Positions 157 to 19,024 of a stretch of 64,000 nt of DNA are shown here, piece by piece (positions within the stretch are counted from its first letter, which is position 1; every line of letters begins with the position of its first letter). The notes beneath the pieces were generated by a model that did no database searches, was not told the DNA's origin, and saw only the letters and a list, made by a program, of their open reading frames with translations. The DNA comes from Clostridia bacterium. GTDB taxonomy: Bacteria > Bacillota > Peptococcia > DRI-13 > SM3-B62. The stretch covers positions 1-64,000 of the forward strand of contig JAHDSQ010000014.1 in NCBI GenBank assembly GCA_018432615.1, given 5' to 3'. The translations under genes and the position numbers were made by a program.

Positions 157-396
157 ATGGAGGCAATTGCCAGCTCCTTTCTTACAGGAATGGTTCAGTT
201 GATGGTTGAGTATTGTAATTTAAAGGTATGGGAGATTGTATTTAATAAAGGTTTTGACATAATATTCAGCAATGAAACATTGACTCTCTTTATTTTTTCA
301 ATACAAATAATGTTCCTGATTATGATTTCCGTTTTCCTTCACAAGAAGAGAATAGCAATATTTTCGAGGGAAGAGAAAAATGAAAATTTTAAATGA
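157..396 (+). pseudogene. Possible N-terminal membrane piece of the agrC-like sensor, in a different frame
   Basis: An 80-codon open frame with two hydrophobic stretches (about residues 7-18 and 52-69), the second followed by basic residues, as at the end of a membrane helix. It runs into the next gene, overlapping its start by 17 bases in another frame. AgrC-type sensors normally carry about six membrane helices before the kinase core, but the downstream kinase ORF has only two. This piece may therefore be part of the same sensor, separated by a frameshift or split into a coupled second ORF. The frame is open back to base 46 but has no good start before the ATG at 157. It could instead be a stand-alone small membrane protein. 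Confidence 0.4.
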
Positions 397-1279
397 ATTA
401 ACAAGGGATTACTATAAGGCGATTGTTTTGATTTTTGCCTCTCAGTTCATTTTGTTGAGCGTATTTTTTAATAATACCATCATGGCGAGGCATAATTTCT
501 TTCAGCCCGAAAATGAGCTCCAGTTTGAATTCTCAATGGGGATGTTCATCTTCGCCTTGAATTTCACCGCTGCGATGATTTGCAGGGGTATGTACAAAAA
601 GAGCAGAAAAGAACAGGAATACAAGGCAAATGAACTGAGAATTCAACATATTGAAGAGCAGAACCAGGTATATCGCCAGCACCATCATGACTCAAGGAAC
701 CATCTGACTATCATCGCTCTGATGGCGGGACTTGACAAGACAAATGAACTCAAGAGATACGTTTCTGTCTATTCCGATGTTATTGATATCAGCGGTAACG
801 ATATTGATACGGGAATAGTGGAACTGGATTTGCTTTTGTATGCCAAGGTATGCGACGCAAAGGCTAAGAAAATAGAGGTTAAATATGAGTGCAATGTCAA
901 GCTGTCTTGTCCGACATATTATGTGGTTATCCTCGTTTCTATTTTTGGAAATGTCTTTGATAACGCCATTGAAGCAGCGTCCAAGGTGGAAGAAGGGAAG
1001 CTAAAGGAAATAGAGTTCTTCATAGAGGACGACCCCTGTGACATCGTTTTTTGTGTGATGAATACATATACCGGGGAGAAAATCGCACCGGAAAAACTGG
1101 AAGAGGGGGGCTTTACCAGTAAGGAGGAAGGGGATCATGGGCATGGCTTGAAGATAATCTCTCGCCTGGTGAAGAAGATGGGGGGAATTGTGAGATTTGA
1201 GATGAATGATACGCATTTCATTACGGAAATCCAAATCCCGACACACATTTTAAAGGATGTGAAACAATGCCAAGTTTAG
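380..1279 (+). CDS. agrC: AgrC-like GHKL sensor histidine kinase
   Basis: 299-residue sensor kinase expected to detect a cyclic peptide signal and phosphorylate a LytTR response regulator, which is not in the window. Two membrane segments (about residues 14-31 and 51-68) precede a linker. The phospho-acceptor region is HHHDSRNHL (residues 101-109; the His before Asp is the likely site). The N-box is GNVFDNAIEAA near residue 191 and the G-box is GHGLKII near 255, typical of HATPase_c_5 kinases of the AgrC/FsrC type. It is short for the family (about 430 residues), lacking most membrane helices; see the upstream fragment. The 3' end overlaps agrB by 13 bases, so the two are translationally coupled. 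The agrC symbol is by homology of type, not proven orthology. Confidence 0.85.
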   Translation: MKILNELTRDYYKAIVLIFASQFILLSVFFNNTIMARHNFFQPENELQFEFSMGMFIFALNFTAAMICRGMYKKSRKEQEYKANELRIQHIEEQNQVYRQHHHDSRNHLTIIALMAGLDKTNELKRYVSVYSDVIDISGNDIDTGIVELDLLLYAKVCDAKAKKIEVKYECNVKLSCPTYYVVILVSIFGNVFDNAIEAASKVEEGKLKEIEFFIEDDPCDIVFCVMNTYTGEKIAPEKLEEGGFTSKEEGDHGHGLKIISRLVKKMGGIVRFEMNDTHFITEIQIPTHILKDVKQCQV

Positions 1280-1848
1280 AGGAAATCTCTCATAGGATAA
1301 TTGTCCGGATGTATCGAGGGAGGGAAGCTGATGAAAAAGAAAAGGCCCAGGCGGAATTCGGTCTCAGCATAATAATGGGAACAGGGTTGGAAATCCTGGC
1401 GGTCATCTTGGCTTCTTTCCTTTTGATGGGAACCGCATTTTACGCTTTTTTCGTGATGGTAGGGTTTTTTCTCTTGAGAACATACACGGGAGGAGCGCAT
1501 TGCACGACGTATCTTCGCTGTTTTTTAGTTACCCTGTTTATCTTTGTTCCGGCTTCATTTTTAGCACGGTTCCTTCATTTTCAAAGCCTTGATGAACCAT
1601 TTGTTTTGCTCCTTCTGGTTGTTCTTTCCCTTCTTTCCGTTATTCTGATTGTGGGAAAGAAGAGGTTTGTTGCAACAATATTTGCCTTGTCAAGTGCTGT
1701 GCTTTTGGCGATTGTCTCGATGTTTCCTGATTTTCCCTCCTTAAGAGGTATTGCCGTATCAATCGTATTGGGAGGTTTTATTCAGGCCGTATCACAGACA
1801 GGACAAGGGAAGGCAGTGATCTCTTTTTTAGACAGTAAAATCAAATAA
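1267..1848 (+). CDS. agrB: AgrB-like autoinducer-processing membrane peptidase
   Basis: 193-residue integral membrane cysteine peptidase that would cleave the AgrD pro-peptide and form the thiolactone. The catalytic pair is visible in RTYTGGAHCTTYLRC: His78 and Cys85, seven residues apart, matching His77 and Cys84 of Staphylococcus AgrB. An amphipathic N-terminus is followed by several membrane helices to the C-terminus, and the length is normal for the family. It starts inside the kinase gene and is followed after 113 bases by agrD, giving the order C-B-D rather than the staphylococcal B-D-C-A. Confidence 0.93.
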   Translation: MPSLEEISHRIIVRMYRGREADEKEKAQAEFGLSIIMGTGLEILAVILASFLLMGTAFYAFFVMVGFFLLRTYTGGAHCTTYLRCFLVTLFIFVPASFLARFLHFQSLDEPFVLLLLVVLSLLSVILIVGKKRFVATIFALSSAVLLAIVSMFPDFPSLRGIAVSIVLGGFIQAVSQTGQGKAVISFLDSKIK

Positions 1849-1961: not shown

Positions 1962-2096
1962 ATGAAAAAAATTACGACATTCTTGGTTCCTTTCCTGGCT
2001 ATGATATTTGTGACTGTGGGTAATATGGCTTGGCTATCTAGATTATGCTGTTATAGTAGCTTTTACGAACCAAAAAAACCCGCAGGACTGGCTTGA
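1962..2096 (+). CDS. agrD: AgrD-like cyclic lactone autoinducer pro-peptide
   Basis: 44-residue ORF with GAAGAAGGGGAG as ribosome-binding site. It has a hydrophobic amphipathic leader (residues 4-25), a core CCYSSF and an acidic/Pro tail YEPKKPAGLA, the standard AgrD architecture (compare the CSTCDFIM-DEVEVP pattern of staphylococci). The likely signal is a five-residue thiolactone from Cys30 to Phe34 with a short N-terminal extension. It follows agrB directly and sits just ahead of the biosynthetic cluster, which makes it the obvious candidate signal for that cluster. Its small size makes it easy to miss in automatic annotation. Confidence 0.9.
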   Translation: MKKITTFLVPFLAMIFVTVGNMAWLSRLCCYSSFYEPKKPAGLA

Positions 2097-2333: not shown

Positions 2334-3368
2334 GTGATACTTGAAAATTTGACAGCGGTTCCTGCAACAAACCCGAGTAGACTGATGTCTTTGCGAGATG
2401 GTGTTTATGCCGCCGATTTGTTTACGGTAGCCGTTGGACATTTGAATATTTTTTCCTGGCTATGCCGTAAACCTGCGAAATTTGCAGAAATATGCAGGAA
2501 ATACGGCATAAAAGAAAGACCTACGGATGTTATGCTGACCCTTTTGAAAGCTTATGGTCTGCTGGAGGTAAAGGATGGTCGTTATTCCGTAACAGCATTA
2601 GCGGCGGAGCATCTGACCGATTCTGCGGAATGGAACTTAGGGCCATATATTTCTTCCCAGAAAGGCAGACCTGTTTGCCTGGAAATGCTCCAGGTGCTTA
2701 AGACGGGGGAGCCGGTGGGCTGGGGAGGAGAAAAGGACGAGGAAGAATGGGTTCTGGCTATGGAAAGAGAAGATTTTTCCGAAACTTTCACTGCTGCTAT
2801 GGACAGCAGAGGAGCATATCTTGCTCCGGCTCTTGCCAAAAGGGTAAATTTCAGCGGACATAAAAGGCTGTTAGATATCGGGGGTTCCTCAGGAATATAT
2901 GCGGCAGCGGTCGTTTCTAAGCATGAGCATATGACTGCAGCGGTACTGGACAGGACTCCTGTCGATAAAATAGCCAGATATGCTATAGGAAAAAGGGGTT
3001 TGCAGGATAAGGTTGATGTTATAGCCGGAGATATGTTTGAGGTGGAATTTCCAGGAGACTGTGATATTCATCTCTACTCGAATGTGTTGCATGATTGGGA
3101 TATTACTGAGGTAAGGGCATTGCTGGAAAAGTCGTACCGAGCCTTACCGGAAGGTGGAATGCTACTGATACATGATGCCCATGTGAATTTTGATAAAAAC
3201 GGGCCTCTTGAAATAGCAGAATACTCCGTATTGTTAATGTATTCAACCAGGGGAAAATGCTATTCGTATCAGGAATTGGGAGATATGTTGAATGAAATCG
3301 GGTTTACCGGAATACTGGTTATCCCCACAGTCGCCAAGAGGAGCATTATCTTGGCGAAGAAGATGTGA
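2334..3368 (+). CDS. SAM-dependent O-methyltransferase (HIOMT / Methyltransf_2 type)
   Basis: 344-residue methyltransferase with the two-part layout of small-molecule O-methyltransferases. An N-terminal winged-helix dimerisation domain (about 1-100) is followed by a Rossmann SAM domain with motif I LLDIGGSSGIYA near residue 183. The signature SNVLHDWD near 248 contains the His that acts as base in this family. The start is a GTG after GGCAGGG. It is the first gene of the cluster and the likely tailoring step that methylates a hydroxyl or enol; the substrate is unknown. Eighteen bases separate it from the next gene. Confidence 0.85.
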   Translation: MILENLTAVPATNPSRLMSLRDGVYAADLFTVAVGHLNIFSWLCRKPAKFAEICRKYGIKERPTDVMLTLLKAYGLLEVKDGRYSVTALAAEHLTDSAEWNLGPYISSQKGRPVCLEMLQVLKTGEPVGWGGEKDEEEWVLAMEREDFSETFTAAMDSRGAYLAPALAKRVNFSGHKRLLDIGGSSGIYAAAVVSKHEHMTAAVLDRTPVDKIARYAIGKRGLQDKVDVIAGDMFEVEFPGDCDIHLYSNVLHDWDITEVRALLEKSYRALPEGGMLLIHDAHVNFDKNGPLEIAEYSVLLMYSTRGKCYSYQELGDMLNEIGFTGILVIPTVAKRSIILAKKM

Positions 3369-3394
3369 AATTTATTTAAAAGAGGGTGGTTATA

Positions 3395-3937
3395 TTGTTA
3401 ACAACCGGGAAGAAGAGTATTGTGATATCAACCCTTGGACCGGGCGGAACATGCAGTGAGAACACTGCTAAATGTTACTTAGATGCGCGTAAGCTGGAGG
3501 GGACGATCAAGCTATACGATTCCTTCGAAGAGGCGATCGAAGCCTTAAAAAGAGAAGAGTCGGATTGTGCTCTTGTGCCTGCGGCATACCAGAACTTCGA
3601 TAAAATACTATTTTATAATTCAGAAACAACAAGAATTGTTGATACATTTACATACGAAACACCGCGGCTTATCATTGGCAGCAAAATGAAAGATGCAAGT
3701 GAGATCAAAAAGGTCGCAGGGCATCCGGCACCTAGCAACTGGATTCATAAATATCTTCCTGAGGCTGAAGTGGTTTTCGCAAAAAGCAGCAGTCAGGCGG
3801 CAATAATGGTAGCCGAAGGGAAAGTGGATGCTTGTATGACTAATTCTATCTGTATTGATGAATATGGATTGAATGTCATTAAGGATTGTGGCTCGATTCT
3901 GATGAGTTGGAACGTGTTTGAAAGGAGAGTTTCATGA
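3395..3937 (+). CDS. BacA-like prephenate decarboxylase (prephenate dehydratase fold)
   Basis: About 180 residues with a prephenate-dehydratase-type fold but without the regulatory ACT domain and without the TRF catalytic motif of true dehydratases. Similarity to Bacillus subtilis BacA, recalled from memory, runs along the whole length: TLGPGGTCSE against TLGPEGTSSE, a VPAAY against VPHAY segment, GHPAPSNWIHKY against SHPSPINLIKY, and MSWNVF against MSWSLF at the end. BacA removes CO2 from prephenate without aromatising it, giving dihydro-4-hydroxyphenylpyruvate. A TTG at 3395 after AGAGGGTGG is preferred; GTG 3386 is the alternative. It overlaps the cupin gene by four bases (ATGA), and that pair mirrors bacA-bacB. 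Confidence 0.8.
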   Translation: MLTTGKKSIVISTLGPGGTCSENTAKCYLDARKLEGTIKLYDSFEEAIEALKREESDCALVPAAYQNFDKILFYNSETTRIVDTFTYETPRLIIGSKMKDASEIKKVAGHPAPSNWIHKYLPEAEVVFAKSSSQAAIMVAEGKVDACMTNSICIDEYGLNVIKDCGSILMSWNVFERRVS

Positions 3938-4554
3938 TAAAGGATGTAACGGAGGTCAGGACGGTCAAAAAGGGTTATGAACAGGGATATCTGGTTTCCG
4001 GCAATTATGAAATATTACTTAATGATATTAAAAAAGGGACTGATCTGGATGCTCATTCCCATTATCACAGTCAGTTAGTTTACTGCTTTAAAGGGGAATT
4101 TGATTTCTATATCAAGGGCAAGAGCCATCGTATAGTTCCGGAGTTATCCTTGATTGTTAATTCCCAGGTCATACATGCGGCAGATGCATTGGCGGACTTC
4201 AGGTCACTGGATGTTAAGTATATTCCGACCCCTGAGGAATTATCCAAAGTGGATTTTGTGGTGAGATTCAATGTGTTTTCCGAGAAAATAGCTAATGAGT
4301 TATTGGTGGTCGAAGAGGTTGTACTGAACGAGATAGAGTTAAAGAGGATCAGGAACAAGAAGGAAGGTACAAAGCTGGATGTTCCACAGGATTTGAGGAA
4401 AAAAAGATATTTTGTTACCGGGAAAAGGTGTAAAGTTACGGTTAATGGCAGGGAGTATGATTTACAGCCTATGAGGATATATCTTGTGGAGGATGAAGGT
4501 TTTCGCTTAGTTTTGCAGGAGGAAAACAGCGAATTGTTTATGTTTGAAATATAA
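3934..4554 (+). CDS. BacB-like bicupin protein (candidate dihydro-hydroxyphenylpyruvate isomerase)
   Basis: 206-residue protein with two cupin halves. The first (about residues 20-100) has the metal-binding pattern HSHYH followed by a GEFDFYIKGK strand; the second (about 130-206) is degenerate and lacks an obvious His cluster. In bacilysin synthesis the bicupin BacB isomerises the BacA product from the endocyclic to the exocyclic conjugated diene. Length, domain order and position directly behind a BacA-like gene support the same role here. The ATG has a good AAGGAG site and overlaps the previous stop. A generic cupin regulator or dioxygenase cannot be excluded from sequence alone, and the latter would be odd in an anaerobe. 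Confidence 0.7.
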   Translation: MIKDVTEVRTVKKGYEQGYLVSGNYEILLNDIKKGTDLDAHSHYHSQLVYCFKGEFDFYIKGKSHRIVPELSLIVNSQVIHAADALADFRSLDVKYIPTPEELSKVDFVVRFNVFSEKIANELLVVEEVVLNEIELKRIRNKKEGTKLDVPQDLRKKRYFVTGKRCKVTVNGREYDLQPMRIYLVEDEGFRLVLQEENSELFMFEI

Positions 4555-4573
4555 GGGGTAGGAGTTGAATGTA

Positions 4574-6274
4574 GTGACTAAAGGACTAACAGGAGGAGAA
4601 CTGCTTGCGGAACAAATAAAAAGGGAAGGCATTGATACCATTTTCACACTTATTGGCAACCAGGTATCGCCGACGTTGGTTCATATGTCTGATTACGGCA
4701 TCAAGGTAATCCATGCCCGCAACGAAAAGGGTGTTGTGCACATGGCCGAAGGATGGGCGCAGGTTAAACGCCAAGCGGCTGTAGCCATCGTCAGCGGCGG
4801 GCCGGGGTTTGCGAATTCCCTTACCGGAATTATTAAGGCATATTATGCTCAGACACCGCTTCTTTTGATCACAGGAGGAGTGGTGCCGAGGCAAAGGGAT
4901 ATGGGGGTGCTGGCCGATATTGAACAGGTTTCGTTTGTCAAGCCCTACACCAAATGGTCTTGTACTGTGCATGATGCGGCGAGGATACCTGAATATATCA
5001 GCAGAGGGATACAATTTGCTTCCACCGGACGCAGAGGGCCGGTGGTGCTTGAAATACCCATTGATGTCCTTAAGAAGAGGGTGGAAAGTGAGCCTTTGAG
5101 GTATGATTCTGATTTAACAAGAGAGGATATTTCCTTGGCTGCGCCGGAGAAGGTCGATGCTTTCTTGGAAATGCTTTCTTTAGCCAAGAGACCGGTGATA
5201 ATAGCCGGGGACGAAGTTTACTACGAAGGTGCGGAGAAGGAGCTTGCCGAGTTTGTGGAAAAAACACGGATACCGGCCTTTACCGTCAATAAAGCCAGGG
5301 GTTGCATTGCGGACATACACCCTTTATGTATGGGGTCAGGCCGGGTATTGGAGGCAGGTCCCCAGCTTTATGCTTATCAAAACGCCGATACGGTGATCAC
5401 CATCGGCATGGAAAACGATTACCAGATGGAGTATTTGGGCCCGCCTAATTTTTCAGATGAGCAAAAGTTTATCAGTATAAATAAGGAGGCCTTTAGCCTT
5501 ATCAACGGAAATTATCGGACGGATCTGGCCCTGTTAGGAAGCGTCGGGCGGGTAATGAAACAGATTTCCGAAAGGATAGTCGGGCTATCCATAGACTATA
5601 ACTTTTCCGAGTGGTTAGATCTGCTGAATGAAAACAAAAAGAGATACTGGGAAGAACTGGAGAAGGAGAATAGCAGAAAACCCACCTCGCTGGTCAATCC
5701 CTACAGGTGTATCCGGGAAATACAAAGACTGATAGATGAGGATGCCGTGATTGTTATTGATGGTTCCAACGCCATGTTTTGGGCGACGTTATGTTTTAAT
5801 TGCAACCACCCTGGGCAGGTCATTATCGGCCCCGACGGTGTGTTGGGGCCGATGGGCTCCGGGGTTGCGTTGGCGGTGGGAGCAAAGGCGGCTGCCGGAG
5901 ACAGGGAGGTTGTTTTGTACACGGGGGACGGTTCTTTTGGTTTCAATGCTATTGAGTTTGATACGGCTGTGAGGTTAGACCTGCCGATTAAGGTGTTCAT
6001 TCATAACGATGAGACCTGGGGATTTTGTAAAACAACTCAAGAAATCCTATATAACAAGACGGAGGCAGCCGATTTAGGAATGGTTCATTATGAAAAGATG
6101 GCTAGTGCTTTGGGCGGATATGGAGAGCTCATTTCCGATGAAAAAGACTTAACGGAAGGTATTACAAAGGCGAAAGAGTCTCATCTTCCTGCGTGTTTGA
6201 ACATTATGGTGGATAAATACGCCTACAGCCCCGGCGCGAATGCGTTCAATGAGGCGTTAAAGCTGCAAAAGTAA
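4574..6274 (+). CDS. Thiamine-diphosphate-dependent enzyme, acetolactate synthase-like
   Basis: 566-residue three-domain ThDP enzyme (PYR, central, PP). The catalytic Glu that activates the cofactor is Glu51 in ARNEKGVVHMAEGWA. The ThDP/Mg motif GDGSFGFN lies near residue 456, with the Asn-Asp about 27 residues on. It lacks the His-His pair of pyruvate decarboxylase. Cluster context suggests that it decarboxylates the 2-oxo acid made by the BacA/BacB-like pair, or carries out a carboligation with it; it is not paired with an ilvN regulatory subunit or other ilv genes. GTG 4574 is preferred over TTG 4565 because the GGGGTAGGAG site directly abuts the TTG. Confidence 0.8.
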   Translation: MTKGLTGGELLAEQIKREGIDTIFTLIGNQVSPTLVHMSDYGIKVIHARNEKGVVHMAEGWAQVKRQAAVAIVSGGPGFANSLTGIIKAYYAQTPLLLITGGVVPRQRDMGVLADIEQVSFVKPYTKWSCTVHDAARIPEYISRGIQFASTGRRGPVVLEIPIDVLKKRVESEPLRYDSDLTREDISLAAPEKVDAFLEMLSLAKRPVIIAGDEVYYEGAEKELAEFVEKTRIPAFTVNKARGCIADIHPLCMGSGRVLEAGPQLYAYQNADTVITIGMENDYQMEYLGPPNFSDEQKFISINKEAFSLINGNYRTDLALLGSVGRVMKQISERIVGLSIDYNFSEWLDLLNENKKRYWEELEKENSRKPTSLVNPYRCIREIQRLIDEDAVIVIDGSNAMFWATLCFNCNHPGQVIIGPDGVLGPMGSGVALAVGAKAAAGDREVVLYTGDGSFGFNAIEFDTAVRLDLPIKVFIHNDETWGFCKTTQEILYNKTEAADLGMVHYEKMASALGGYGELISDEKDLTEGITKAKESHLPACLNIMVDKYAYSPGANAFNEALKLQK

Positions 6275-6283
6275 GGAGGAGCC

Positions 6284-7408
6284 ATGTTTAAGTTTAATAA
6301 TGAGCAGTTGGTTTTTAAAGAATCGGCAAGAGAATTAGTTGAAAAGCATATTGAAAAGGGTGCGAATGAGAGGAATAATAATAAGCTCTATCCTACCGAG
6401 GTACTCAAGAAGTTAGGGGAGCTTGGATATAAAGGGCTGTTAATCCCTGAATATTACGAAGGTACAGAATTGGACATCGTATCCGCTTCGTTGATTATCT
6501 ATGAAGTAGCAAAGTCCGATGCTTCCTTGGCCCATCTGCTGGCAACAGCGAACTTTGGCTTTGTCTACCCCATACTAAGGTATGGGAGTGAAGCCCAGCA
6601 TGAAAAATATTTAAGGGCTTGTGCCGCAGGGGAAAAGGAAGGGATCTTCGCCTATGTTGAACCCCAGACAGAAATCAAAACCATTTTGCAGCCCGGCGGT
6701 GAAGCATATGTGCTTAACGGGACGAAATGCATGATCACGAATGCGCCTTATGCCGATTATGCGATGGTGGCGGTAACTAATCATCAACCCGTACCTGAGA
6801 TGGAAAGGCTCACGACGGTCATTGTTGATTTAAAAAACACCCCGGGTGTAGAAATTGGTAAAGCCGAAGAGACCATGGGGTTAAACTCTTTGAAAATAGC
6901 GGAAATATTCTTTAATAATGTTGAGCTTGACGAGGATTCTTTTTTAGGAGAACAAAACCAGGGAGGAGATATCATCATAGATACCACCAACCTGATGAGA
7001 ATCAGTAATTGTGCTATTGCCTTAGGGATTGCAGAGCGGGCCTATGAGGAAGCCTTGGCCTACGCCAGGTTCAGGAAGATTTACAGTACACCCTTGATTG
7101 AGATGCAGGCCATCAAACATAATTTTGCCGATATGAAGGCTGAGTTAGAGGTTATCAAGTTGTTGACTTTTCACACTGCTTCTTGTTTTCGGCAAAAAGC
7201 CTGGGAGGATTTCGATAATTGTGCGATGGCAAAGTATAAGGTGACAGAAAAGGCAAAATCTATCTGTGATTACTGCCTGCAAATCTTTGGGGGATATGGA
7301 TATATACAAGGAAATACCATTGAGCGTCTTTATCGGGATATCAGGGCTATGACCATCTTAGGCGGGGACTCCGATAGGTTGAAGTCCTTCCTTGCGATGG
7401 GTATTTAG
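6284..7408 (+). CDS. Acyl-CoA/acyl-ACP dehydrogenase-like flavoprotein lacking the usual catalytic Glu
   Basis: 374-residue protein with the complete acyl-CoA dehydrogenase fold: N-terminal helical, middle beta (SMITNAPYADYAM-type flavin-binding region near 145) and C-terminal helical with FGGYGYIQGN near 340. At the position of the base in short/medium-chain enzymes (the YEGT motif) it reads LGGDSD, so the Glu is Gly. Isovaleryl- and long-chain-type enzymes place the base elsewhere, so this does not prove inactivity. A strong AGGAGG site lies 10 bases after the ThDP gene. With a carrier protein in the cluster, the substrate may be an ACP-bound acyl group or a cyclohexenyl intermediate. Confidence 0.82.
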   Translation: MFKFNNEQLVFKESARELVEKHIEKGANERNNNKLYPTEVLKKLGELGYKGLLIPEYYEGTELDIVSASLIIYEVAKSDASLAHLLATANFGFVYPILRYGSEAQHEKYLRACAAGEKEGIFAYVEPQTEIKTILQPGGEAYVLNGTKCMITNAPYADYAMVAVTNHQPVPEMERLTTVIVDLKNTPGVEIGKAEETMGLNSLKIAEIFFNNVELDEDSFLGEQNQGGDIIIDTTNLMRISNCAIALGIAERAYEEALAYARFRKIYSTPLIEMQAIKHNFADMKAELEVIKLLTFHTASCFRQKAWEDFDNCAMAKYKVTEKAKSICDYCLQIFGGYGYIQGNTIERLYRDIRAMTILGGDSDRLKSFLAMGI

Positions 7409-7423: not shown

Positions 7424-8401
7424 ATGGTTGAGAAGATAAACCTGCAAAAAGACTGGGAAATTGAGACCCAGGAGATATGTGATAAGATCAAGCAGATTGT
7501 TTATGGATTTTTAAAAAAAGACGGGGTAGTTGTGGGCTTAAGCGGAGGGATCGATTCTTCCGTGACAGCGGCTTTGTGCGTGCGGGCTTTGGGAAAGGAA
7601 AAGGTACTGGGAGTCTTATTGCCGGAAAAGGAATCTAGCCAGGAAAGCGTTCCTTGTGCAAAAATGATTGCTCAGAAGCTGGGAATTGAATATGTCGAAA
7701 GGGATATCACCGGGATGGCTGAAGCCTTTGGTGTATATCAGAAGATTGAAGAAATCATCAGGAAATACTACCCGGAGTATGATAAAAGCCTGCGGTACAA
7801 GATTTCTTTACCCAACAATTTATTGGATAAGCAGGTTTTGAACCTTTACTCTTTATCTGTAGAGAATGAAAAAGGTGAAGAGGTATTCAGAAAGACATTG
7901 TCGTTTTACGATTATCGGGCTTTTCAGGCTGCTTTGAGTGTGAAACTAAGACTGCGTATGATCAACCTTTACTATTATGCGGAACAGCACAACAGGGCGG
8001 TTGCCGGAACAACGAATAGGTCGGAGTTTGAATTGGGCAATTTTTGCAAACATGGCGACGGAGGGATTGACTTTGAAGTGATTTCACATTTATACAAGAC
8101 CCAGGTCTATAAGCTGGCCGAATATTTAGATATTCCAATAGAAATACAGAAGAGGCCGCCTTCGCCGGATACGTGTAGTGCTTATGTCACCGATGAAGAA
8201 TTCTTCTTTTCGCTTCCTTTTAGTATTTTGGATCTGCTGTTGTCGACTCACTCAAAGGGGTACTCGGCGACTGAAGCGGCAGAGGTGCTGGGTCTTGAGG
8301 AACAACAGGTTGCAGCGGTGTTTAGGAATTTCCAAAACAAACAAAACAATACTAAGCATTTGAAAGTACTGCCGCCGATGTGCGGAACGATGGAGCCCTA
8401 A
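7424..8401 (+). CDS. NAD synthetase-like amidating ATP-pyrophosphatase (NadE paralogue)
   Basis: 325 residues of the NadE synthetase fold with the PP-loop VVVGLSGGIDSSVTAA (near 35-50) and the conserved GTTNRSEFELGNF and YKTQVYKLA segments. No glutaminase domain is present. The conserved NadE loop that normally reads PSAxLWxGQTDE is replaced by PSPDTCSAYVTDEE, and there is an insertion near residues 110-160. A full glutamine-dependent NAD synthase is encoded at 21823, so this copy is probably not for NAD supply. It may activate a carboxylate by adenylation and form an amide in the pathway. It could still be an ammonia-dependent NadE. Confidence 0.72.
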   Translation: MVEKINLQKDWEIETQEICDKIKQIVYGFLKKDGVVVGLSGGIDSSVTAALCVRALGKEKVLGVLLPEKESSQESVPCAKMIAQKLGIEYVERDITGMAEAFGVYQKIEEIIRKYYPEYDKSLRYKISLPNNLLDKQVLNLYSLSVENEKGEEVFRKTLSFYDYRAFQAALSVKLRLRMINLYYYAEQHNRAVAGTTNRSEFELGNFCKHGDGGIDFEVISHLYKTQVYKLAEYLDIPIEIQKRPPSPDTCSAYVTDEEFFFSLPFSILDLLLSTHSKGYSATEAAEVLGLEEQQVAAVFRNFQNKQNNTKHLKVLPPMCGTMEP

Positions 8402-8424: not shown

Positions 8425-9450
8425 ATGGTTAAGAGAAATGTTTGCCAAAAATGTTTACTACCGCAAGAGTTTCCGGGGATAACTTTTTCTGCGGAAGGAG
8501 TTTGCAATTACTGTGAGGAGTATCAAAAGGAAGCAGTACAGGAAGACTTCGGCAGCTATGAGAAGCAGTTCTTAGAGTTTTGTGCTTCCCACAAAACAAA
8601 CAGTGAATATGACTGTTTACTGGCTTACAGCGGAGGCAAGGATAGCACATACACGCTGTATCTCTTAAGGGAGAAATATGGTTTAAATGTACTGGCTTAT
8701 ACTTTTGATAATGGTTTCATATCAGATGCGGCCAAGGTCAATATTAAAACAGTGACGGAGAATCTTGATACGGACAGCATCATCTTCTCGCCGCGAATTG
8801 AGCTTCTAAAGGCGATGTTCAAAAATGCTGCGTTGAATGATAAGGTCTATTCCCAGGCGGCTTTGATGAGGGCATCGGCTATTTGTACGACCTGCATAAA
8901 TTTCATTCGCTATAACTCCTTAAAGTTGGCCGTTGAGAAAAGGATCCCGCTCTTGATTTTCGGTTGGGCTCCCGGGCAGGTGGATGCCCGTTCGATAATC
9001 TTAAAGCCCCAGCCTGCATTTATGAAGAAGTCTCAGGATGTTTTTGTAAATGCCAACAAGAATTATCTGGAGAAGTATCAGGATATCTACTTCCTAACGG
9101 CTGAGCAATACAGTGATGGACATGGTATGCCGCACTTTGTCAATCCCTTGCTTTTTAACGAGTATGATATGGGGAAAATAAAGGCGGCCATTGAAGGTCT
9201 GGGTTGGAAAAACCCCCAGGATACGGATTCTAATTCGACCAATTGCTTGTTAAATACCTTTGGCAATTATATGCATCAAAAGAAGCATGGCTATAACCCG
9301 TATGTGCAGGAGATCAGCGAGTTGGTCCGCAGCGGTATCATCACCCGGGAAGAGGGCCTGGCAAGGCTTGAAAAAAGCCTTGATCAAAATATTATTGATG
9401 AGTGTATACGAAAGCTGGGTATTGATCGTGGAGCTTTAGGAGGTAGATGA
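8425..9450 (+). CDS. PP-loop ATPase related to N-acetyl sugar amidotransferases (WbpG/PseA-like)
   Basis: 341-residue protein. The N-terminal treble-clef-like motif CQKCLLPQEFPG...GVCNYC has two CxxC pairs, and the PP-loop LLAYSGGKDSTYTLYLL lies near residue 75, followed by TFDNGF. This is the WbpG/PseA-type arrangement, in which an ATP-activated group receives ammonia, sometimes from a HisH/HisF-like partner; no such partner is nearby. The start ATG 8425 has TTGGAGGA ahead of it. Two successive ATP-pyrophosphatases next to an adenylating ligase and a carrier protein suggest amide, amidine or thioamide chemistry. The true substrate is unknown. Confidence 0.7.
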   Translation: MVKRNVCQKCLLPQEFPGITFSAEGVCNYCEEYQKEAVQEDFGSYEKQFLEFCASHKTNSEYDCLLAYSGGKDSTYTLYLLREKYGLNVLAYTFDNGFISDAAKVNIKTVTENLDTDSIIFSPRIELLKAMFKNAALNDKVYSQAALMRASAICTTCINFIRYNSLKLAVEKRIPLLIFGWAPGQVDARSIILKPQPAFMKKSQDVFVNANKNYLEKYQDIYFLTAEQYSDGHGMPHFVNPLLFNEYDMGKIKAAIEGLGWKNPQDTDSNSTNCLLNTFGNYMHQKKHGYNPYVQEISELVRSGIITREEGLARLEKSLDQNIIDECIRKLGIDRGALGGR

Positions 9451-9451
9451 C

Positions 9452-11008
9452 ATGCTGGTACAGGAGCTGTTGAAAAAAAGCGCAGAGAAATACGGCGATA
9501 AGACCTTTGCTGTTTGTGGAGAGAAACAGGTCACTTACCGGGAACTAGCTCATTATTCCGATATCTTAGCCTTAAAGCTGCGAATGTACGGTAAAGGATT
9601 AACTATGGGTGTCCTGGCGAAGAACTCTTTGGAGTACCTGATTTGTTATTTTGCGGTCATTAAAAGTGGTAACATTTTTGTGGCAATCAATCCATTAAAC
9701 AGAAAGAATGATTTGCAGAAAATAATGACAGATGCGGGGATAAGGGTTTTGTTCGCCGGAAACCAGCAGCTAAAGACAGTTTTGGAGATGGAAGAGGGGT
9801 TTCTACAAAAAATAGAATTGTATAGTCTTGACAACCCGGAGGAAGAAATCGCAGAAAAGGACGGACTGAGGGTTAAGAGTTTTCGGCAGGAGACGTACGT
9901 TGGTAATGTAGATGAAAGTGACAAAGAGATGTTTTATATGCAAGAAGATAATGAAATTGCGCAAATAATCTATACCTCAGGGACGAAAGGTTTTCCTAAT
10001 GGGGTATGCCTGACCCATCAAAATCTCATTGCCAATATGGAGCAGATTAAAGACAGGATAGATATCACGGAGCAGGACAATATGCTGGTTATCTTAGCCT
10101 TTTACTATTCCTATGGGAATTCCTTGATTTTAAGCCATTTGGCCAGTGGCGCAAAGTTGACCATCAATAACAACTCACAGTTGCCGGTATTTATCCTCAA
10201 GGATCTTACGGAGAAGAAATGCACCAGTATTGCCGGAGTCGCCACGAATTTCATTATGATGTTAAAAAGGTCTAAGTTTAAGGAGATGAAGCTGCCTCAT
10301 TTGAGGTATCTTACCTTTGCCGGAGAGCCGGTTGCCGACTGGGTCATTACTGAGCTTGCGTCAATGGGGTTGGATATTTATGTTATGTATGGACAGACTG
10401 AGGCAACAGCAAGAATATCGATCCTTAAGCCAAAGGAGTTGGCCGAAAAGCCAAGTTCGGTAGGCAGGCCGATCAAAGGTGTGGATTTGAAAATAATAGA
10501 TGCTGAGGGAAATGTTTTGCCGCCGGGTGAGTATGGTCAGGTGATAGTGTCCGGGCCTAATGTTATGAAGGGGTACTGGAATGACCCGGAATCGACGGCC
10601 GGCAAGATCAAAGATTCCTACTTGTATACGGGTGATTTTGGCATGCTTGATGAGGATGGTTACCTGTACATTTCCGGCAGAATGGATGAGATGATCAAGA
10701 TAGGAGGGGAAAGGGTTTTTCCTATTGAGATCGAAAAGACGCTTTTGGCACATGAACTGGTTGACGAGGCAGGGGTGCTGGGGGTCAAAGAGGTAAGTGA
10801 TGGGGAATCCTTCAGTGATTACATGGGTCAGACGATATATGCTTTTGTTGTTCCCAAAGAGGGATTGACGAAAAACGAGCTGTTTGTATTCTGCAAGGAG
10901 AATCTGCCGCCTCATAAGGTGCCGGGAAGGATAGTCTTTGTGGAGAATCTGCCCCGAACCAATACCGGTAAACTGAAAAGAAGGGAAATGATTAAATTTG
11001 TGCAGTAA
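9452..11008 (+). CDS. Acyl-AMP ligase (ANL superfamily), probable carrier-protein loading enzyme
   Basis: 518-residue adenylate-forming enzyme with the ordered family motifs: IYTSGTKGFPNGV (near 173), YGQTEAT (near 311), YTGDFG (near 392), a GRMDEMIKIGGERVFP hinge and the terminal NTGKLKR containing the catalytic Lys. It would activate a carboxylic acid with ATP and pass it to CoA or to the free acyl carrier protein three genes downstream. It starts one base after the stop of the previous gene region with an AGGAGGTAG site, so it is in the same operon. Substrate choice cannot be read reliably. Confidence 0.88.
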   Translation: MLVQELLKKSAEKYGDKTFAVCGEKQVTYRELAHYSDILALKLRMYGKGLTMGVLAKNSLEYLICYFAVIKSGNIFVAINPLNRKNDLQKIMTDAGIRVLFAGNQQLKTVLEMEEGFLQKIELYSLDNPEEEIAEKDGLRVKSFRQETYVGNVDESDKEMFYMQEDNEIAQIIYTSGTKGFPNGVCLTHQNLIANMEQIKDRIDITEQDNMLVILAFYYSYGNSLILSHLASGAKLTINNNSQLPVFILKDLTEKKCTSIAGVATNFIMMLKRSKFKEMKLPHLRYLTFAGEPVADWVITELASMGLDIYVMYGQTEATARISILKPKELAEKPSSVGRPIKGVDLKIIDAEGNVLPPGEYGQVIVSGPNVMKGYWNDPESTAGKIKDSYLYTGDFGMLDEDGYLYISGRMDEMIKIGGERVFPIEIEKTLLAHELVDEAGVLGVKEVSDGESFSDYMGQTIYAFVVPKEGLTKNELFVFCKENLPPHKVPGRIVFVENLPRTNTGKLKRREMIKFVQ

Positions 11009-11023: not shown

Positions 11024-12010
11024 ATGATTACGATTAGAGCTGTGCGCCCGGAAGATCTGGTGCAATGGAGCCGGCTGTGGCAAGAGTACTGGGAAGACAA
11101 CAAATATGTGATAAGAAGCCATGATGTCGCCTATTACGAGTATCGCTGCTTTAATAATAAATACACCGATGCCTTTTGCTGTCTTGATGAAAATGGCAAT
11201 ACGATAGGTTTTTGCGGTATTGGCAAGAGAGAACTAATTCGCCATGGAAGACGTTCGTTGGCAGCCGAATTTACAGACTTTATTTTTGACCCGCGCTACA
11301 GAATGCGGGGGCATGTGAAAGAGTTTGCGCGGCGTTTGTTCAGCGGAGCATTGGCAAGGTTTGACTGGTGTGTGTTTTACCCCGTCAACCGGGAGTCCTT
11401 TATCACTTGGCGCTTTATGTTCAAATTCGACCGGATGTATGAGATTAACAAGTGGGCATTACTCTTGGAATATGAGGAGAGAGACGTTCAAGAAATCGGG
11501 TATGAATGTGTTGAACAGGTGTCGCTTAATGCACCGTGTATCAGAAAAAACAGTGCCTATTTGCAATGGCGGTATTTTAAACATCCTTCTTGCTACAAGC
11601 TTGTGGGACTGCAAAGAGGCGGCAGGACAGCAGGATATTTTACTTATCTTGAGGTTGAAATAGACGGTATTTCCGGGGTGGAAATAGGGGGGATATATTA
11701 TGAGGACATTGCAAAGACAGGGTATAAAGGGATGGAGATGTGTCTGGATAGTATAGTGGCATTTATTAAAAGCCGGGGTAGCAAGTTTATGATATTACAG
11801 GCACTAAAAGGTTGCGGCTGGGACCGGTATTTGGCTAATTGGGAACGCAGTAAAAAAACATTTGAAAAAAAATATGCGTTGCTGCTTAACATGAGGAATT
11901 TCAACCGGGGATTGAAGCCGAAAAAAGAAGTGGCACCTGATGCCTTTGCGCTTTTAGGTGAGGAGTTGGATGCTCCGCGCGAGGTTTCATTTGTCACCAA
12001 GATACTATAA
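11024..12010 (+). CDS. GNAT-family acyltransferase-like protein
   Basis: 328 residues. The N-terminal segment IRAVRPEDLVQWSRLW opens like a GNAT fold. A GFCGIGKRELIR beta4-like strand and an EFTDFIFDPRYRMRG acyl-CoA binding-like turn follow. The remainder resembles a second, weaker GNAT half, as in FemX/MSMEG-type double-GNAT proteins. In the cluster it could transfer an acyl group from CoA or ACP to an amine. It sits 15 bases after the ligase with CGGAGG ahead of its ATG. Assignment to family is moderate and substrate is unknown. Confidence 0.6.
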   Translation: MITIRAVRPEDLVQWSRLWQEYWEDNKYVIRSHDVAYYEYRCFNNKYTDAFCCLDENGNTIGFCGIGKRELIRHGRRSLAAEFTDFIFDPRYRMRGHVKEFARRLFSGALARFDWCVFYPVNRESFITWRFMFKFDRMYEINKWALLLEYEERDVQEIGYECVEQVSLNAPCIRKNSAYLQWRYFKHPSCYKLVGLQRGGRTAGYFTYLEVEIDGISGVEIGGIYYEDIAKTGYKGMEMCLDSIVAFIKSRGSKFMILQALKGCGWDRYLANWERSKKTFEKKYALLLNMRNFNRGLKPKKEVAPDAFALLGEELDAPREVSFVTKIL

Positions 12011-12032: not shown

Positions 12033-12290
12033 ATGATGAAACAAAAAAATGTCAGAGAAGAATTAAAAGATTTTATTAAAGAAAGGTTTTTGGCGGGGAG
12101 CACAGGTGAGAACCTGGACTATGATTCTAAGCTGCTGGATGAACAAATTATTGACTCTTCCGGGGTGCTGGTTTTGATTATGCATATTGAGAAGGCATAC
12201 AACATCACAATTGATGATGCCGAACTCATACCGGAGAATTTTAACTCAATATCCTACCTGGCAGGATTAATTGAAAAGAAGGTAAGCTAA
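12033..12290 (+). CDS. Free-standing acyl/peptidyl carrier protein
   Basis: 85-residue acidic helical protein with the phosphopantetheine attachment motif IIDSSGVLVL; Ser42 follows the conserved Asp. It is preceded by GTAAGGAG and lies between the GNAT and a dehydrogenase-like gene. A dedicated discrete carrier protein, separate from the fatty-acid acpP (which normally sits with fabF/plsX), is strong evidence for a secondary-metabolite assembly path. The likely loader is the ligase at 9452 and likely clients are the two aberrant dehydrogenases and the KASIII-like enzyme. Confidence 0.88.
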   Translation: MMKQKNVREELKDFIKERFLAGSTGENLDYDSKLLDEQIIDSSGVLVLIMHIEKAYNITIDDAELIPENFNSISYLAGLIEKKVS

Positions 12291-12320: not shown

Positions 12321-13454
12321 ATGATGTCTCAGAATGAAGGCTGTGCCAAGAGGGAGGAAATCAAGGCTTTTATTGAGGAAAAGATTAAACCCTTTGAAAA
12401 AAAACCGCACAATTTTGCTGAAAGCTGGCCGTTGTTCGGTGAGCAAAATCTATTCGGGCTTTTGTCAAGGGCCTGCAGAAATCAAGAACCGGCTCTGTTT
12501 GAGGAACATTTGGTTTTAATTGAGGAATTATCCAAGGTGTCGATCAGCGGGTTATTGATCAGTTTCCTCAGTCAGGGTTGGATTATCGAATGCATTGAGA
12601 GGCTGGCTACCAATGAATACCATCGACAGGCCTTGCAGGAATGCAAAAAGGGCAAGAAGATAGGGGCCTTTTGCCTGACTGAGGCCGATTACGGGTCGAG
12701 CTACAGTAATCTATCGACCTATGCGGTTGAAGAAGATGGTAAGTGGAGGATAGAGGGAGAGAAGGTTTATATAACCAATTCTGCCTTGGCTGATTACTTC
12801 ATTGTGGTGGCTAATACCTCGGATGAAGGCAAGCAGAAGATATCCTTGTTTCTGCTGGACAAGGAAACGGCGGATATCAGCATTGAGGAAAGAATTGGGT
12901 TTATGGGGAATGTTAATTCAGGGATTTCCAAGATTAAGATTTCTTGTCAGGGGCTTGATGAAAAGCACCTGCTCGGCAAGCAAGGTACAGGGTTTTTCCT
13001 TTTGCCGAAGTGTTTGGGCTTTGAAAGAATGGATATTTCCCTGTGCTCGTTATACATTGCTAAAGAAGGGTTGCAACGTACTCTGGCCTTTTTGGGCAAG
13101 AGGAAGAACCAAGAGGAAAAGCTCCTTGATTATCAAGTCATCAGACATAAGATCGTCGATATGTCTGCCAGGTTGGAGTTGGTCAGGACGTATATCTTAA
13201 GCACGGCGGAGAAGCTGTTGGCAAACGAGGAGTGCTCAAGAGAGGTTATCCTTTGTAAGATATTGGCTACCGAAGCGGCCCGAGACATACTTTTACAATC
13301 GATGCAACTGACGGGGGCCTACGGTTTCACGAAGGAAAGCGGCATGATTACGATGTTCAACGATATTGCGCCGTTGACTGTCGGAGGCGGGGCGAATGAT
13401 GCGCTGCGCAATGCTTTATTTGGATTGGCGAGGAGTATGATCAACAGAAAGTAA
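12321..13454 (+). CDS. Divergent acyl-CoA/acyl-ACP dehydrogenase-like flavoprotein
   Basis: 377 residues with the acyl-CoA dehydrogenase order of domains. The N-terminal helical part is unusually divergent; the middle part has FCLTEADYGSS and an ITNSALADYFIVVAN flavin region; the C-terminal part has TGAYGFTKESG. The catalytic Glu motif is replaced by VGGGAND. This is the second such protein in the cluster, and its position immediately after the carrier protein favours an ACP-bound substrate, as in PltE/RedW-type oxidation or FkbI-type enzymes. Electrons could pass to the EtfBA pair downstream. AAGGAG precedes the ATG pair at 12321. Confidence 0.78.
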   Translation: MMSQNEGCAKREEIKAFIEEKIKPFEKKPHNFAESWPLFGEQNLFGLLSRACRNQEPALFEEHLVLIEELSKVSISGLLISFLSQGWIIECIERLATNEYHRQALQECKKGKKIGAFCLTEADYGSSYSNLSTYAVEEDGKWRIEGEKVYITNSALADYFIVVANTSDEGKQKISLFLLDKETADISIEERIGFMGNVNSGISKIKISCQGLDEKHLLGKQGTGFFLLPKCLGFERMDISLCSLYIAKEGLQRTLAFLGKRKNQEEKLLDYQVIRHKIVDMSARLELVRTYILSTAEKLLANEECSREVILCKILATEAARDILLQSMQLTGAYGFTKESGMITMFNDIAPLTVGGGANDALRNALFGLARSMINRK

Positions 13455-13488
13455 AGCAAGTATCCTATGAGATATGAAGGTGATTAGA

Positions 13489-14784
13489 GTGAAGGATATA
13501 CAAAGTAAATACAAGGTGGATTTTGATATTGCGACCAACTTTGATAAGGACTTTACAGATGAGATTGCTGAATATGGTGATTTTAAGTGGGTATACGGGA
13601 AGTTGAACCATGATGTGGTCGGAGGAGGCAGGCCTTCAATCAGGCTGCCGATTATCTCCTGGGAAGAGTTGGGGGATTATGTGGCATACTGCCATGAACG
13701 GGGCATTAAGTTCAATTATCTTCTCAATGCCTTGTGCCTGGGGGGAATGGAACTTCAGAAATCCTTTCATGAAGAGGTTATTGAACTACTAAAGAAGCTG
13801 ACTGAGATAAAGGTTGATGGTGTTACCGTGGCTTCTCCCTACTTGTGTGAAATTATTAAGGAACAGTTTCCGCATTTTTATGTCTCCGTGTCTGTTTACA
13901 ATAAGGTGCAGAGCATACCACCGCTAAAGTATTGGCGCGATATCGGGGCGGATGAGATTACGCTGTTTCATACAGCCAACCGGGACTTTAATTTATTGAG
14001 AAGGATGCTCAGTTACGCCAAAGAGATTGGCTTGGTGATACGGCTGATTGCCAATAACAGTTGTCTTCACGAATGTCCTTTTCATGCCAATCATGCGGTT
14101 ACTCACGCTCATGGCTCCAAAGACGATGAGCAGACGAGGGTGTTTCATATCGACTACCAGGTTTTAAACTGCAATCTTTTTAAGATTAAGAATCCGTATC
14201 GTATTATGGCTTCCGAATGGATCAGGCCGGAAGACATTCATTATTATGAAGAATTATGCGAGGAAATAGGGTATGAGGATTTGACGATCAAGCTGACGGA
14301 ACGCGGCAGGACAAGTGAATGGCTGTTGAGAACCGCCAAGGCTTATCACAACAGATCGTATCAAGGGAATCTGCTCGATATTATCAATTATGTCGGCAAG
14401 GGAGATTTTTACGGCAAACTGCATGATGAAAAATACTGGGACAAGGTAGAGCAGGAAGGTTACAACAAGGAAATGGTCAAGAATTACCGGGAATCGGTTT
14501 TCTACAAGTTGCCTTATGTGGATAATACCAAGCTGGATGGGTTCTTAAAGTTCTTTATCACTAATTATCAGTGCGATCATAAAATCTGTGACGACAGTGA
14601 TTATGACGTAGAAACAGCAACAAAAGATAATGTCAAGGGAGAAGTATGTTCGTACTGTAGGAATTGGGCTAAAAAGGCTATAACGATTGACCCGGAAGAA
14701 AGGCGTCAAATTATTGCTAAGGCCCAGGAAACGCTGGACAATATCAATTCCAGCAGAATATTTTACCGGGAAGAAAGGGGCTAA
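13489..14784 (+). CDS. U32 'peptidase'-family Fe-S protein (UbiU/TrhP/RlhA-like)
   Basis: About 431 residues of the U32 family: a TIM-barrel N-terminal part with SVSVYNKV and the family Cys motif NNSCLHECPFHANH, plus a further Cys in LNCNLFKIKNPY. Additional Cys pairs near the C-terminus (CDHKIC, CSYC) are family-atypical. Biochemically characterised U32 members (UbiU/UbiV, TrhP, RlhA) are oxygen-independent hydroxylation factors with a [4Fe-4S] cluster, and TrhP/RlhA/UbiUV chemistry depends on prephenate. In a cluster that also makes and uses prephenate this is suggestive of anaerobic hydroxylation. GTG 13489 is preferred for its GAAGGTGAT site; ATG 13474 is the alternative. Confidence 0.75.
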   Translation: MKDIQSKYKVDFDIATNFDKDFTDEIAEYGDFKWVYGKLNHDVVGGGRPSIRLPIISWEELGDYVAYCHERGIKFNYLLNALCLGGMELQKSFHEEVIELLKKLTEIKVDGVTVASPYLCEIIKEQFPHFYVSVSVYNKVQSIPPLKYWRDIGADEITLFHTANRDFNLLRRMLSYAKEIGLVIRLIANNSCLHECPFHANHAVTHAHGSKDDEQTRVFHIDYQVLNCNLFKIKNPYRIMASEWIRPEDIHYYEELCEEIGYEDLTIKLTERGRTSEWLLRTAKAYHNRSYQGNLLDIINYVGKGDFYGKLHDEKYWDKVEQEGYNKEMVKNYRESVFYKLPYVDNTKLDGFLKFFITNYQCDHKICDDSDYDVETATKDNVKGEVCSYCRNWAKKAITIDPEERRQIIAKAQETLDNINSSRIFYREERG

Positions 14785-14788
14785 AAGG

Positions 14789-15763
14789 ATGAGACTCTCC
14801 GGGATAAAAAGGATAGGGATAACTTACAGCGATTACTATTTGCCGGCAAGGTTTATGGGTATTGAGGAGTATTTCAGCAGTATTAAAAACTTCACACTCC
14901 CCGCAGGATATGAGGATATAGCCGCTTATTGCGATAACTATTATAAACAGAGGAAGATCAAGGGTATTTACATTGAAGAGGAAAAGAAGGAGATTGAGGT
15001 ATTTGTAGGCTTGATGAACCGGTTTTTCTTAGAAACAGATGTCAAGCCGGAGGATATCGATATTCTCATTTACACCAAGGGTGTTCCTATGCACTCCACC
15101 GATGTCAATGTGCCTTTTTATATCCAAAAGGAGTTCGGGTTAGACAACGTGATCACTTTTAATGTTGATCAGACCTGCGGTGCTTCCTTGATGTCTCTGC
15201 ATATCATTGAGAGGATGATCCAAACCGGAAGGTATAGATCAGGGCTAGTTCTGTCTTCCAGCATTGTACAGGACATGGAAAAGCGCAATGTTCAGCTGAC
15301 CTTGCTTAGTGACGGTCTGGGGTTAATGTACATAGATTCAGATCCCCGCAGATTTTTGATACAGGATTTCTTGGCCAAGACCACCGGAAGTCGTAGTTTT
15401 ACTATGGAAAGCTTCACAAAAAGAGAGAATTACAGGGAACTGGTAAAATACCTGCAAAACGGTGCCGATACGATGAAGGAGCTTTTGGCAAGAAACAACT
15501 TAAGCTTTGAGGACATAAAACTAATTTCACCCCAGAACACCACTTACGGGGGTTGGGAAATTTATGCCAACCTACTGGATATCAGCATGGATAAGATCTT
15601 CCTGGATAACATACCGAGAGGTGCTCATGCAGGGGATGTTGATATAACAAGAAACCTAACGGATATTTACAGAGAGAGGCTCTTAAAAAGAAATGAGCAG
15701 ATGATATCCTACGGGTTAGGATGGGGTACCAGTTGGAATGCCGCATTGCTTAAAATGATGTAA
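14789..15763 (+). CDS. KASIII / FabH-like thiolase-fold enzyme with altered catalytic triad
   Basis: 324-residue thiolase-fold protein. The nucleophile is Cys130 in VDQTCGASLMSL. Where FabH has PHQxN, this protein reads SPQNTT (247-252), so the catalytic His is absent. Where FabH has the second-site Asn (GNxxAAS) there is PRGAHAGDVD with His280. It is therefore unlikely to be a standard decarboxylating condensing enzyme; acyl transfer (CerJ/DpsC-like ester formation) or non-decarboxylative condensation is more likely. The ATG at 14789, four bases after the U32 stop, has GAAAGGGG ahead. The carrier protein is the expected donor or acceptor. Confidence 0.78.
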   Translation: MRLSGIKRIGITYSDYYLPARFMGIEEYFSSIKNFTLPAGYEDIAAYCDNYYKQRKIKGIYIEEEKKEIEVFVGLMNRFFLETDVKPEDIDILIYTKGVPMHSTDVNVPFYIQKEFGLDNVITFNVDQTCGASLMSLHIIERMIQTGRYRSGLVLSSSIVQDMEKRNVQLTLLSDGLGLMYIDSDPRRFLIQDFLAKTTGSRSFTMESFTKRENYRELVKYLQNGADTMKELLARNNLSFEDIKLISPQNTTYGGWEIYANLLDISMDKIFLDNIPRGAHAGDVDITRNLTDIYRERLLKRNEQMISYGLGWGTSWNAALLKMM

Positions 15764-15885: not shown

Positions 15886-15906
15886 CCTAATTGTGAGGTG
15901 GAAAGC

Positions 15907-17181: not shown

Positions 17182-17217
17182 TGAGTTCGTAGAGAGAAAG
17201 GATCAAGGTAAGTCGTG

Positions 17218-17952
17218 ATGAGGATTGGAGTTTGTATTAAGGGAGTAGTTGAAGACAACGAAGGAAGTAAATGGGTGATAAACACCTTTGATGAGTATGC
17301 CCTGGAGGAGGCAGTGAGGCTTAAGGAAAAGGATGAGAAGACGGAAATCGTGGTAATCACCGTAGGACACAAAGGGTTGAAGGAAATGCTGTATGCAGCC
17401 CTAGCGACCAAAGCGGACAGGGCTGTACATGTGGTTACCCCAGATGAAGACATGAGTGGTTTTGGTATCGCTACCATCTTAAAAAGTGTTGTTAGGCAGG
17501 AAAGAATAGACCTTGTTTTGTTAGGGAAACAAGCGGTTGATAACGCCAGCCATCAGATAGGAGGCATGCTGGCAGGATTGCTGAACTGGGCGCAGGCGAT
17601 AGATGTTATAGAGTTGGATATAGAGGGAGATGAAGCAACTGCGCACAGACTGGCGGAAGGCGGCAAGATAGAGGTGATACGGGCAAGGCTGCCTGTGGTG
17701 ATCGGTGCAGCCAAGGGACTTAATGAGCCGCGTTATCCAGCGCTGCGGGGTATCATTGCTGCCAAGAAGAAGGAGATTAAGGAAATAGCTTTGGAGGAAC
17801 TTGGCCTGGCCAGGGAAGACTTATGCGGGATTAAGGTAGAAAGGGTATTTGCAGCGCCGGAAAAAGAAGCCTGTAAATTCATTGAGGGGGAGCCGGGCAA
17901 AGCGGCCGAGGAAATTGTCAGGTTGTTAAGGGAAGAGGCAAAGGTCATCTAA
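17218..17952 (+). CDS. etfB: Electron transfer flavoprotein beta subunit
   Basis: 244-residue EtfB: nucleotide-binding start IGVCIKGVVEDNEG, then LVLLGKQAVDNASHQIGGMLA and the family motif LPVVIGAAKGLNEPRYPALRGI. It pairs with EtfA downstream (32-base gap) to carry electrons between acyl-CoA dehydrogenases and a quinone oxidoreductase or ferredoxin. GTG 17215 and ATG 17218 are adjacent possible starts. Whether it is a bifurcating Etf cannot be settled by eye. In context it would serve the dehydrogenase at 19025 and perhaps the two divergent ones. Confidence 0.93.
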   Translation: MRIGVCIKGVVEDNEGSKWVINTFDEYALEEAVRLKEKDEKTEIVVITVGHKGLKEMLYAALATKADRAVHVVTPDEDMSGFGIATILKSVVRQERIDLVLLGKQAVDNASHQIGGMLAGLLNWAQAIDVIELDIEGDEATAHRLAEGGKIEVIRARLPVVIGAAKGLNEPRYPALRGIIAAKKKEIKEIALEELGLAREDLCGIKVERVFAAPEKEACKFIEGEPGKAAEEIVRLLREEAKVI

Positions 17953-17983
17953 CATTAACAGCAAAACGGTAAGGGGATTGTTT

Positions 17984-18982: not shown

Positions 18983-19024
18983 GTTCAGGAATAGAAAAGA
19001 AATATCTAGAAGGGAGTGGCATGG

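Follow-up and report, generated by a model that had tools for sequence, protein, structure and literature searches.

The 64,000-nt window analysed here (the whole stretch of DNA, positions 1 to 64,000 of contig JAHDSQ010000014.1 from a Clostridia bacterium) probably carries the entry genes of an anaerobic natural-product cluster that is uncharacterised and probably under agr control, in which prephenate, an aromatic amino-acid pathway intermediate, would be decarboxylated without aromatisation, isomerised and handed to a ThDP-dependent carboligation. At its core are two ORFs that overlap by 4 bases and resemble the bacilysin pair, in which BacA decarboxylates prephenate in a non-aromatising manner and BacB isomerises the product (PMC9147277). 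They belong to a series of 19 genes on one strand (positions 2334–21728; Table 1), no more than 33 bases apart save for one gap of 134, that is probably a single operon. The cluster is apparently unusual and undescribed; a literature search returned nothing on it, which is weak evidence as subscription papers lay mostly beyond its reach.

Table 1. Features of the gene cluster and of the upstream agr locus (positions in the window; percentages are protein identities).
Feature	Position	Strand	Basis
AgrC-like histidine kinase, presumed cluster sensor	380..1279	+	ORF; inspection and position next to AgrB
AgrB peptide-processing protease	1267..1848	+	Pfam AgrB 3e-19
AgrD-like pro-peptide MKKITTFLVPFLAMIFVTVGNMAWLSRLCCYSSFYEPKKPAGLA	1962..2096	+	architecture only, read from sequence
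O-methyltransferase (Methyltransf_2)	2334..3368	+	Pfam 1e-28; 63% in G010
BacA-like stand-alone PDT-fold protein, probable non-aromatising prephenate decarboxylase	3395..3937	+	Pfam PDT 55 bits; motifs; tree
BacB-like cupin, probable H2HPP olefin isomerase	3934..4554	+	Cupin_2 above cut-off; family profile; hhalign
ThDP-dependent carboligase/decarboxylase-like enzyme (acetolactate synthase/benzaldehyde lyase superfamily)	4565..6274	+	three TPP domains; PDB relatives
Acyl-CoA dehydrogenase 1, nearest model acryloyl-CoA reductase	6284..7408	+	
NAD synthase-like (PRK00876) ATP-PP-loop enzyme	7424..8401	+	369 bits, above cut-off 313
WbuX-like amidotransferase (PP-loop)	8428..9450	+	164 bits, below 203-bit cut-off
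AMP-dependent acyl/aryl ligase	9452..11008	+	Pfam 9e-72
GNAT-like acyltransferase	11024..12010	+	weak, sub-cut-off Pfam GNAT match (E 0.001)
Acyl carrier protein	12033..12290	+	PP-binding 20.2 bits vs cut-off 20.8; 70% in G010
Acyl-CoA dehydrogenase 2	12321..13454	+	
U32-family protein, possible prephenate-dependent anaerobic hydroxylase	13474..14784	+	Pfam U32 35.7 bits over 65 residues
KASIII-like acyltransferase	14783..15763	+	TCGAS Cys retained; usual His and Asn replaced
Methylaspartate ammonia-lyase	15898..17181	+	E 2e-174 to solved MALs
EtfB and EtfA electron-transfer flavoprotein subunits	17215..18982	+	
Acyl-CoA dehydrogenase 3	19016..20185	+	
Fused chorismate mutase (type II)–DAHP synthase (CM-DAHPS)	20199..21272	+	CM_2 4e-16, DAHP_synth_1 9e-78
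4Fe-4S ferredoxin-type protein	21273..21728	+	

The bacA-like ORF initiates from a TTG codon preceded by AGAGGGTGG and encodes 180 aa; the BacB-like product comprises 206 aa. Relative to the sister species G012, dN/dS amounts to 0.016 for the bacA-like gene and to 0.06 for its neighbour, both indicative of strong purifying selection, and in two further genera of the order the proteins are 60–67% and 39–41% identical, respectively. Given this conservation and selection, both are genuine genes rather than chance ORFs. The first-pass annotation, made from the letters alone, had matched them to the bacilysin pair in order, size and key segments. Gene order is indeed kept in four genomes of the order, and the key segments are present (STLGPGGT near the N-terminus and MSWNVF near the C-terminus of the first protein, HSHYHSQ in the second). 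The sizes disagree, the counterparts in G162 having 203 and 235 aa; this genome, with the locus MFS-bacA-bacB-bacC-bacD-bacF plus a reverse SDR gene, served as bacilysin reference in our tree.

The BacA-like protein is a single PDT-fold domain without an ACT domain, PDT being its only Pfam domain. Residue comparison revealed that the threonine of TRF, the EN pair and the glutamine of SHPQxxxQC are missing and that HPAP and MSWxxF are present. Among 16 true dehydratases compared, the EN pair occurs in all (E. coli PheA among them), S-H-x-(Q/S)-A/P-x-x-Q-C in nearly all, and TRF in every one whose compared stretch extends to that site, a count that excludes one row (L008) trimmed ahead of it. 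In the stand-alone proteins, HP(A/S)P and M-x-(W/F) replace the dehydratase motifs, with two odd rows reading HPAT and HHAP. As prephenate dehydratase is the name of its best-scoring Pfam and NCBIfam models, the protein might be a duplicated dehydratase feeding phenylpyruvate to the ThDP enzyme. This is very unlikely, however, since it scores 55–56 bits (55.8 against the NCBIfam model, whose cut-off is 219) compared to 150–204 bits for real dehydratases of the order, and lacks the above residues as well as the ACT domain. The genome encodes a separate true dehydratase on contig C62 (194 bits, TRF, ACT-containing length). In a search of the phylum, BacA-type matches extended to residue ~176 and true PDTs ended at ~164, or ~169 in a few Clostridium-like rows. 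An AlphaFold model (mean pLDDT ~50, from a 3-sequence alignment) matched the fold of the PDT 3mwb, which is supportive only.

A maximum-likelihood tree split stand-alone proteins from dehydratases at 100/100, with the BacA-like protein on the BacA side. An ordinary dehydratase of phenylalanine synthesis was ruled out by the diagnostic residues together with this tree. The counter-evidence named in the first-pass annotation, a best profile match to true prephenate dehydratase with a TRF-type motif, did not emerge. The four proteins of the order form their own deep branch (89/95), which stands beside the bacilysin-type clade and a DUF6421/ATP-grasp/TdaC-type clade and represents a third lineage, outside the bacilysin/anticapsin branch. 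Plasmid-encoded proteins annotated as BacA share 30–34% identity with the BacA-like protein over 92–97%. Based on residue comparison and tree placement, we assign the protein to the wider BacA-type family, and not as a bacilysin BacA. At this level of the wider family, the first-pass interpretation appears right: by sequence, the relation to BacA holds, and those to BacB and AerE hold distantly. Because the lineage is deep and lies outside the bacilysin clade, the identity of its reaction is presumptive, and both substrate and reaction could differ from those of bacilysin BacA. The protein might act on a prephenate-like compound instead of prephenate or catalyse another non-aromatising step, as TdaC-type and DUF6421-linked relatives maybe do, in which case the product of the pair would not be dihydro-4-hydroxyphenylpyruvate (H2HPP). 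The deep branching and the many stand-alone relatives in dissimilar clusters would fit either case, but the dedicated CM-DAHPS and the neighbouring BacB-like cupin speak for prephenate and a diene isomerisation, rendering this alternative rather unlikely.

The second protein had been described as a bicupin, which is unproven. A metal site H-x-H-x3-Q...H (H41, H43, Q47, H81), invariant in the four genomes, lies in an N-terminal cupin that aligns to the C-terminal cupin of BacB and its metal site (hhalign, 97%). The C-terminal 106 residues contain no metal ligands and no cupin detectable by profile (best E 0.19), so that, as a difference from BacB, the one recognisable metal cupin is N-terminal. 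BacB was the second-best PDB match of the family profile (E 4.8e-9) and AerE (5zbe, 216 aa) matched at E 0.0037 over positions 34–179; identity to BacB is ~21%, across one cupin. A low-confidence structural model (mean pLDDT ~50, 3-sequence alignment) is beta-rich and matched BacB/AerE over ~200 columns, which is suggestive only. Matches to plasmid-encoded proteins were generic cupin fragments only, and the protein is thus not placeable among BacB relatives.

The pair was found in four of 46 genomes of the class, all within one order and belonging to three families. The full cluster is common to two genera of one order, the complete gene set being present in G012 (87–99% identity) and, on one contig, in G010 (40–75%), and a reduced form exists in a third genus. 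In the latter (G014), the locus consists of BacA–BacB–ThDP enzyme–ligase (truncated to 315 residues)–CM-DAHPS, beside what we read as a phosphopantetheinyl transferase-like ORF. Given the truncated ligase, this block may be a decaying remnant; by keeping them together, it ties the pair to both the ThDP enzyme and the supply of prephenate. In the phylum (398 genomes), the strong matches elsewhere were two BacA proteins from a single genus, of which at least one is encoded in a bacilysin locus. When 84,980 species genomes were scanned with two peptide patterns, the MAGs SM3-B6.2 (Clostridia) and UBA5318 (Peptococcaceae) were the sole hits. IMG/VR viral contigs contained no relative.

Within positions 2334–21728 there is no ATP-grasp, aminotransferase, SDR or MFS gene, in agreement with the initial remark that bacC–bacG are absent. 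From this absence, it had been argued that the product of the pair must take a route other than anticapsin. Its diversion through the adjacent ThDP enzyme, as then proposed, is plausible, as this enzyme survives in the reduced G014 cluster with only the pair, the truncated ligase and the prephenate-supply enzyme. The ThDP enzyme possesses a catalytic-type Glu in RNEKG (starting at residue 52) and GDG at 454–456, motifs that are superfamily-wide and not specific to the ScyA type. Besides the CM-DAHPS, the genome has one other DAHP synthase, which resides beside the true dehydratase on contig C62, and the cluster copy is predicted to be a dedicated prephenate supply. In the pathway that we infer, from both reactions of the pair through the ThDP step to regulation and the later steps, the CM-DAHPS would raise prephenate, which the BacA-like protein would convert to H2HPP by decarboxylation without aromatisation, and the BacB-like metal cupin would shift the double bonds of H2HPP into conjugation. 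The ThDP enzyme would decarboxylate the 2-oxo acid and couple its acyl unit with another carbonyl compound, in the manner of ScyA acting on 2-oxo acids; by this analogy, it would be the natural consumer of the dihydro analogue of p-hydroxyphenylpyruvate. Later elaboration might involve the AMP ligase and acyl carrier protein, the KASIII-like protein, the acyl-CoA dehydrogenases with Etf, the U32 protein and the O-methyltransferase.

The U32 protein contains ten conserved cysteines (including C197-x3-C201, C233, C367, C372, C392 and C395), and its gene is, within the order, confined to genomes with the full cluster. As U32 proteins hydroxylate in a prephenate-dependent manner (PMC6599085, PMC11574389), it is a possible second prephenate user. 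This dependence, and the presence of the U32 gene in the same operon, could also mean that CM-DAHPS-derived prephenate serves mainly as oxygen donor for the U32 protein, with the BacA/BacB pair recycling or processing spent prephenate instead of making a skeleton. We consider this highly improbable, since G014 has the pair, the ThDP enzyme and the CM-DAHPS but no homologue of the U32 gene. Extending the favoured route from prephenate via the pair to ThDP carboligation, the cluster might typify a new, oxygen-free and quorum-regulated class of natural-product pathway that uses prephenate twice, once for a carbon skeleton passed from a third-lineage decarboxylase to a ThDP carboligase, and once as the source of oxygen for a small-molecule U32 hydroxylase; this broader proposal is an unlikely one.

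To our knowledge, the BacA/BacB-type pairs characterised so far belong to aerobic or facultative organisms, and the amino acids to which they lead are incorporated into peptides. With bacilysin BacA/BacB of Bacillus, the present pair shares the adjacency of the genes, a stand-alone PDT-like domain, HPAP/MSWxxF-type motifs and the neighbouring metal cupin; it differs in its ~30–35% identity, its separate lineage and the lack of bacC–bacG homologues. Streptomyces sp. Mg1 holds an anticapsin-like cluster with a gene set similar to that of G162. In aeruginosin synthesis, AerD accounts for prephenate decarboxylation as the first step (PMC3252866). The likeness to AerD is by description, and AerE is similar in size to the BacB-like protein; the cluster here has neither NRPS nor AerF. 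In the scytonemin pathway, the ThDP enzyme ScyA couples p-hydroxyphenylpyruvate and indole-pyruvate, and the cluster (scyA-scyB-scyC) duplicates aromatic-pathway genes (PMC4870267). Duplicated aromatic-pathway genes and a ThDP enzyme that forms, or here would form, an acyloin from a shikimate-derived 2-oxo acid are the parallels, ScyA being compared by description; unlike here, its substrates are aromatic, its host is aerobic and BacA/BacB are absent. The O2-independent U32 hydroxylases TrhP, RlhA and UbiU/UbiV, a family with known prephenate dependence, partly resemble the cluster protein in their U32 domain with conserved cysteines, whereas the cluster protein has C-x3-C compared to the E162/C170/C177 spacing of TrhP, and is encoded in a small-molecule cluster with no second U32 partner.

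A deep sister lineage of BacA thus resides in the cluster of an anaerobe that has no transaminase, ATP-grasp or NRPS genes and comprises acyl-carrier, acyl-CoA dehydrogenase and ThDP chemistry with a predicted dedicated prephenate supply instead. If active, it would open prephenate decarboxylation to products of a new kind and allow a U32 enzyme to be tested on small molecules besides ubiquinone, with bearing on how prephenate donates oxygen, an open question (PMC11574389).

The agrC-like, agrB and agrD-like genes directly upstream make quorum control of the cluster likely; the AgrC-like kinase is 98% identical in G012. Between the agrD-like ORF and the operon lies a leader (2110–2246) with a folding energy of –62.7 kcal/mol (z –6.7 vs shuffles), which is single-copy in the genome, present in G012 and not recognisable in G010. 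Its hairpins showed no clear compensation in G012, and an Rfam search over 1840–2345, where a riboswitch was suspected by eye, gave no match; it may be either a structured leader or a remnant element. Further downstream, an ordinary PyrR binding site (29223–29332; Rfam 58.2 bits) precedes the pyr operon.

The methylaspartate ammonia-lyase is encoded without a glutamate mutase in the operon, and a second genome copy adjoins glutamate mutase on contig C15; the G014 ammonia-lyase gene is likewise located elsewhere, beside glutamate mutase. The cluster enzyme keeps the active-site Lys and His of solved MALs and has Met at what we take to be the Leu384 position. A wide-pocket type was considered and is unproven, given this Met.

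BacA-type proteins were also observed in other gene settings. At L063 (6567–7238; G376, same phylum), a divergent one (HPSP, MLFTF) accompanies an aminotransferase, a radical-SAM-type protein and an ATP-grasp enzyme. AgrB-like genes flank this locus, which is a possible second agr-linked prephenate cluster. A Pseudoalteromonas plasmid (L029, 5995–12486) combines a BacA-type protein with DUF6421, two ATP-grasp enzymes and its own DAHP synthase/chorismate mutase, and related sets occur on plasmids of Pantoea (L027) and Staphylococcus xylosus (L026; ATP-grasp only). On the Pseudomonas aeruginosa plasmid pNY8709-IMP (L023, 3572–8160), a BacA-type gene lies with aminotransferase, AMP ligase and ornithine cyclodeaminase-like genes, a set that is syntenic with Pantoea plasmid L022.
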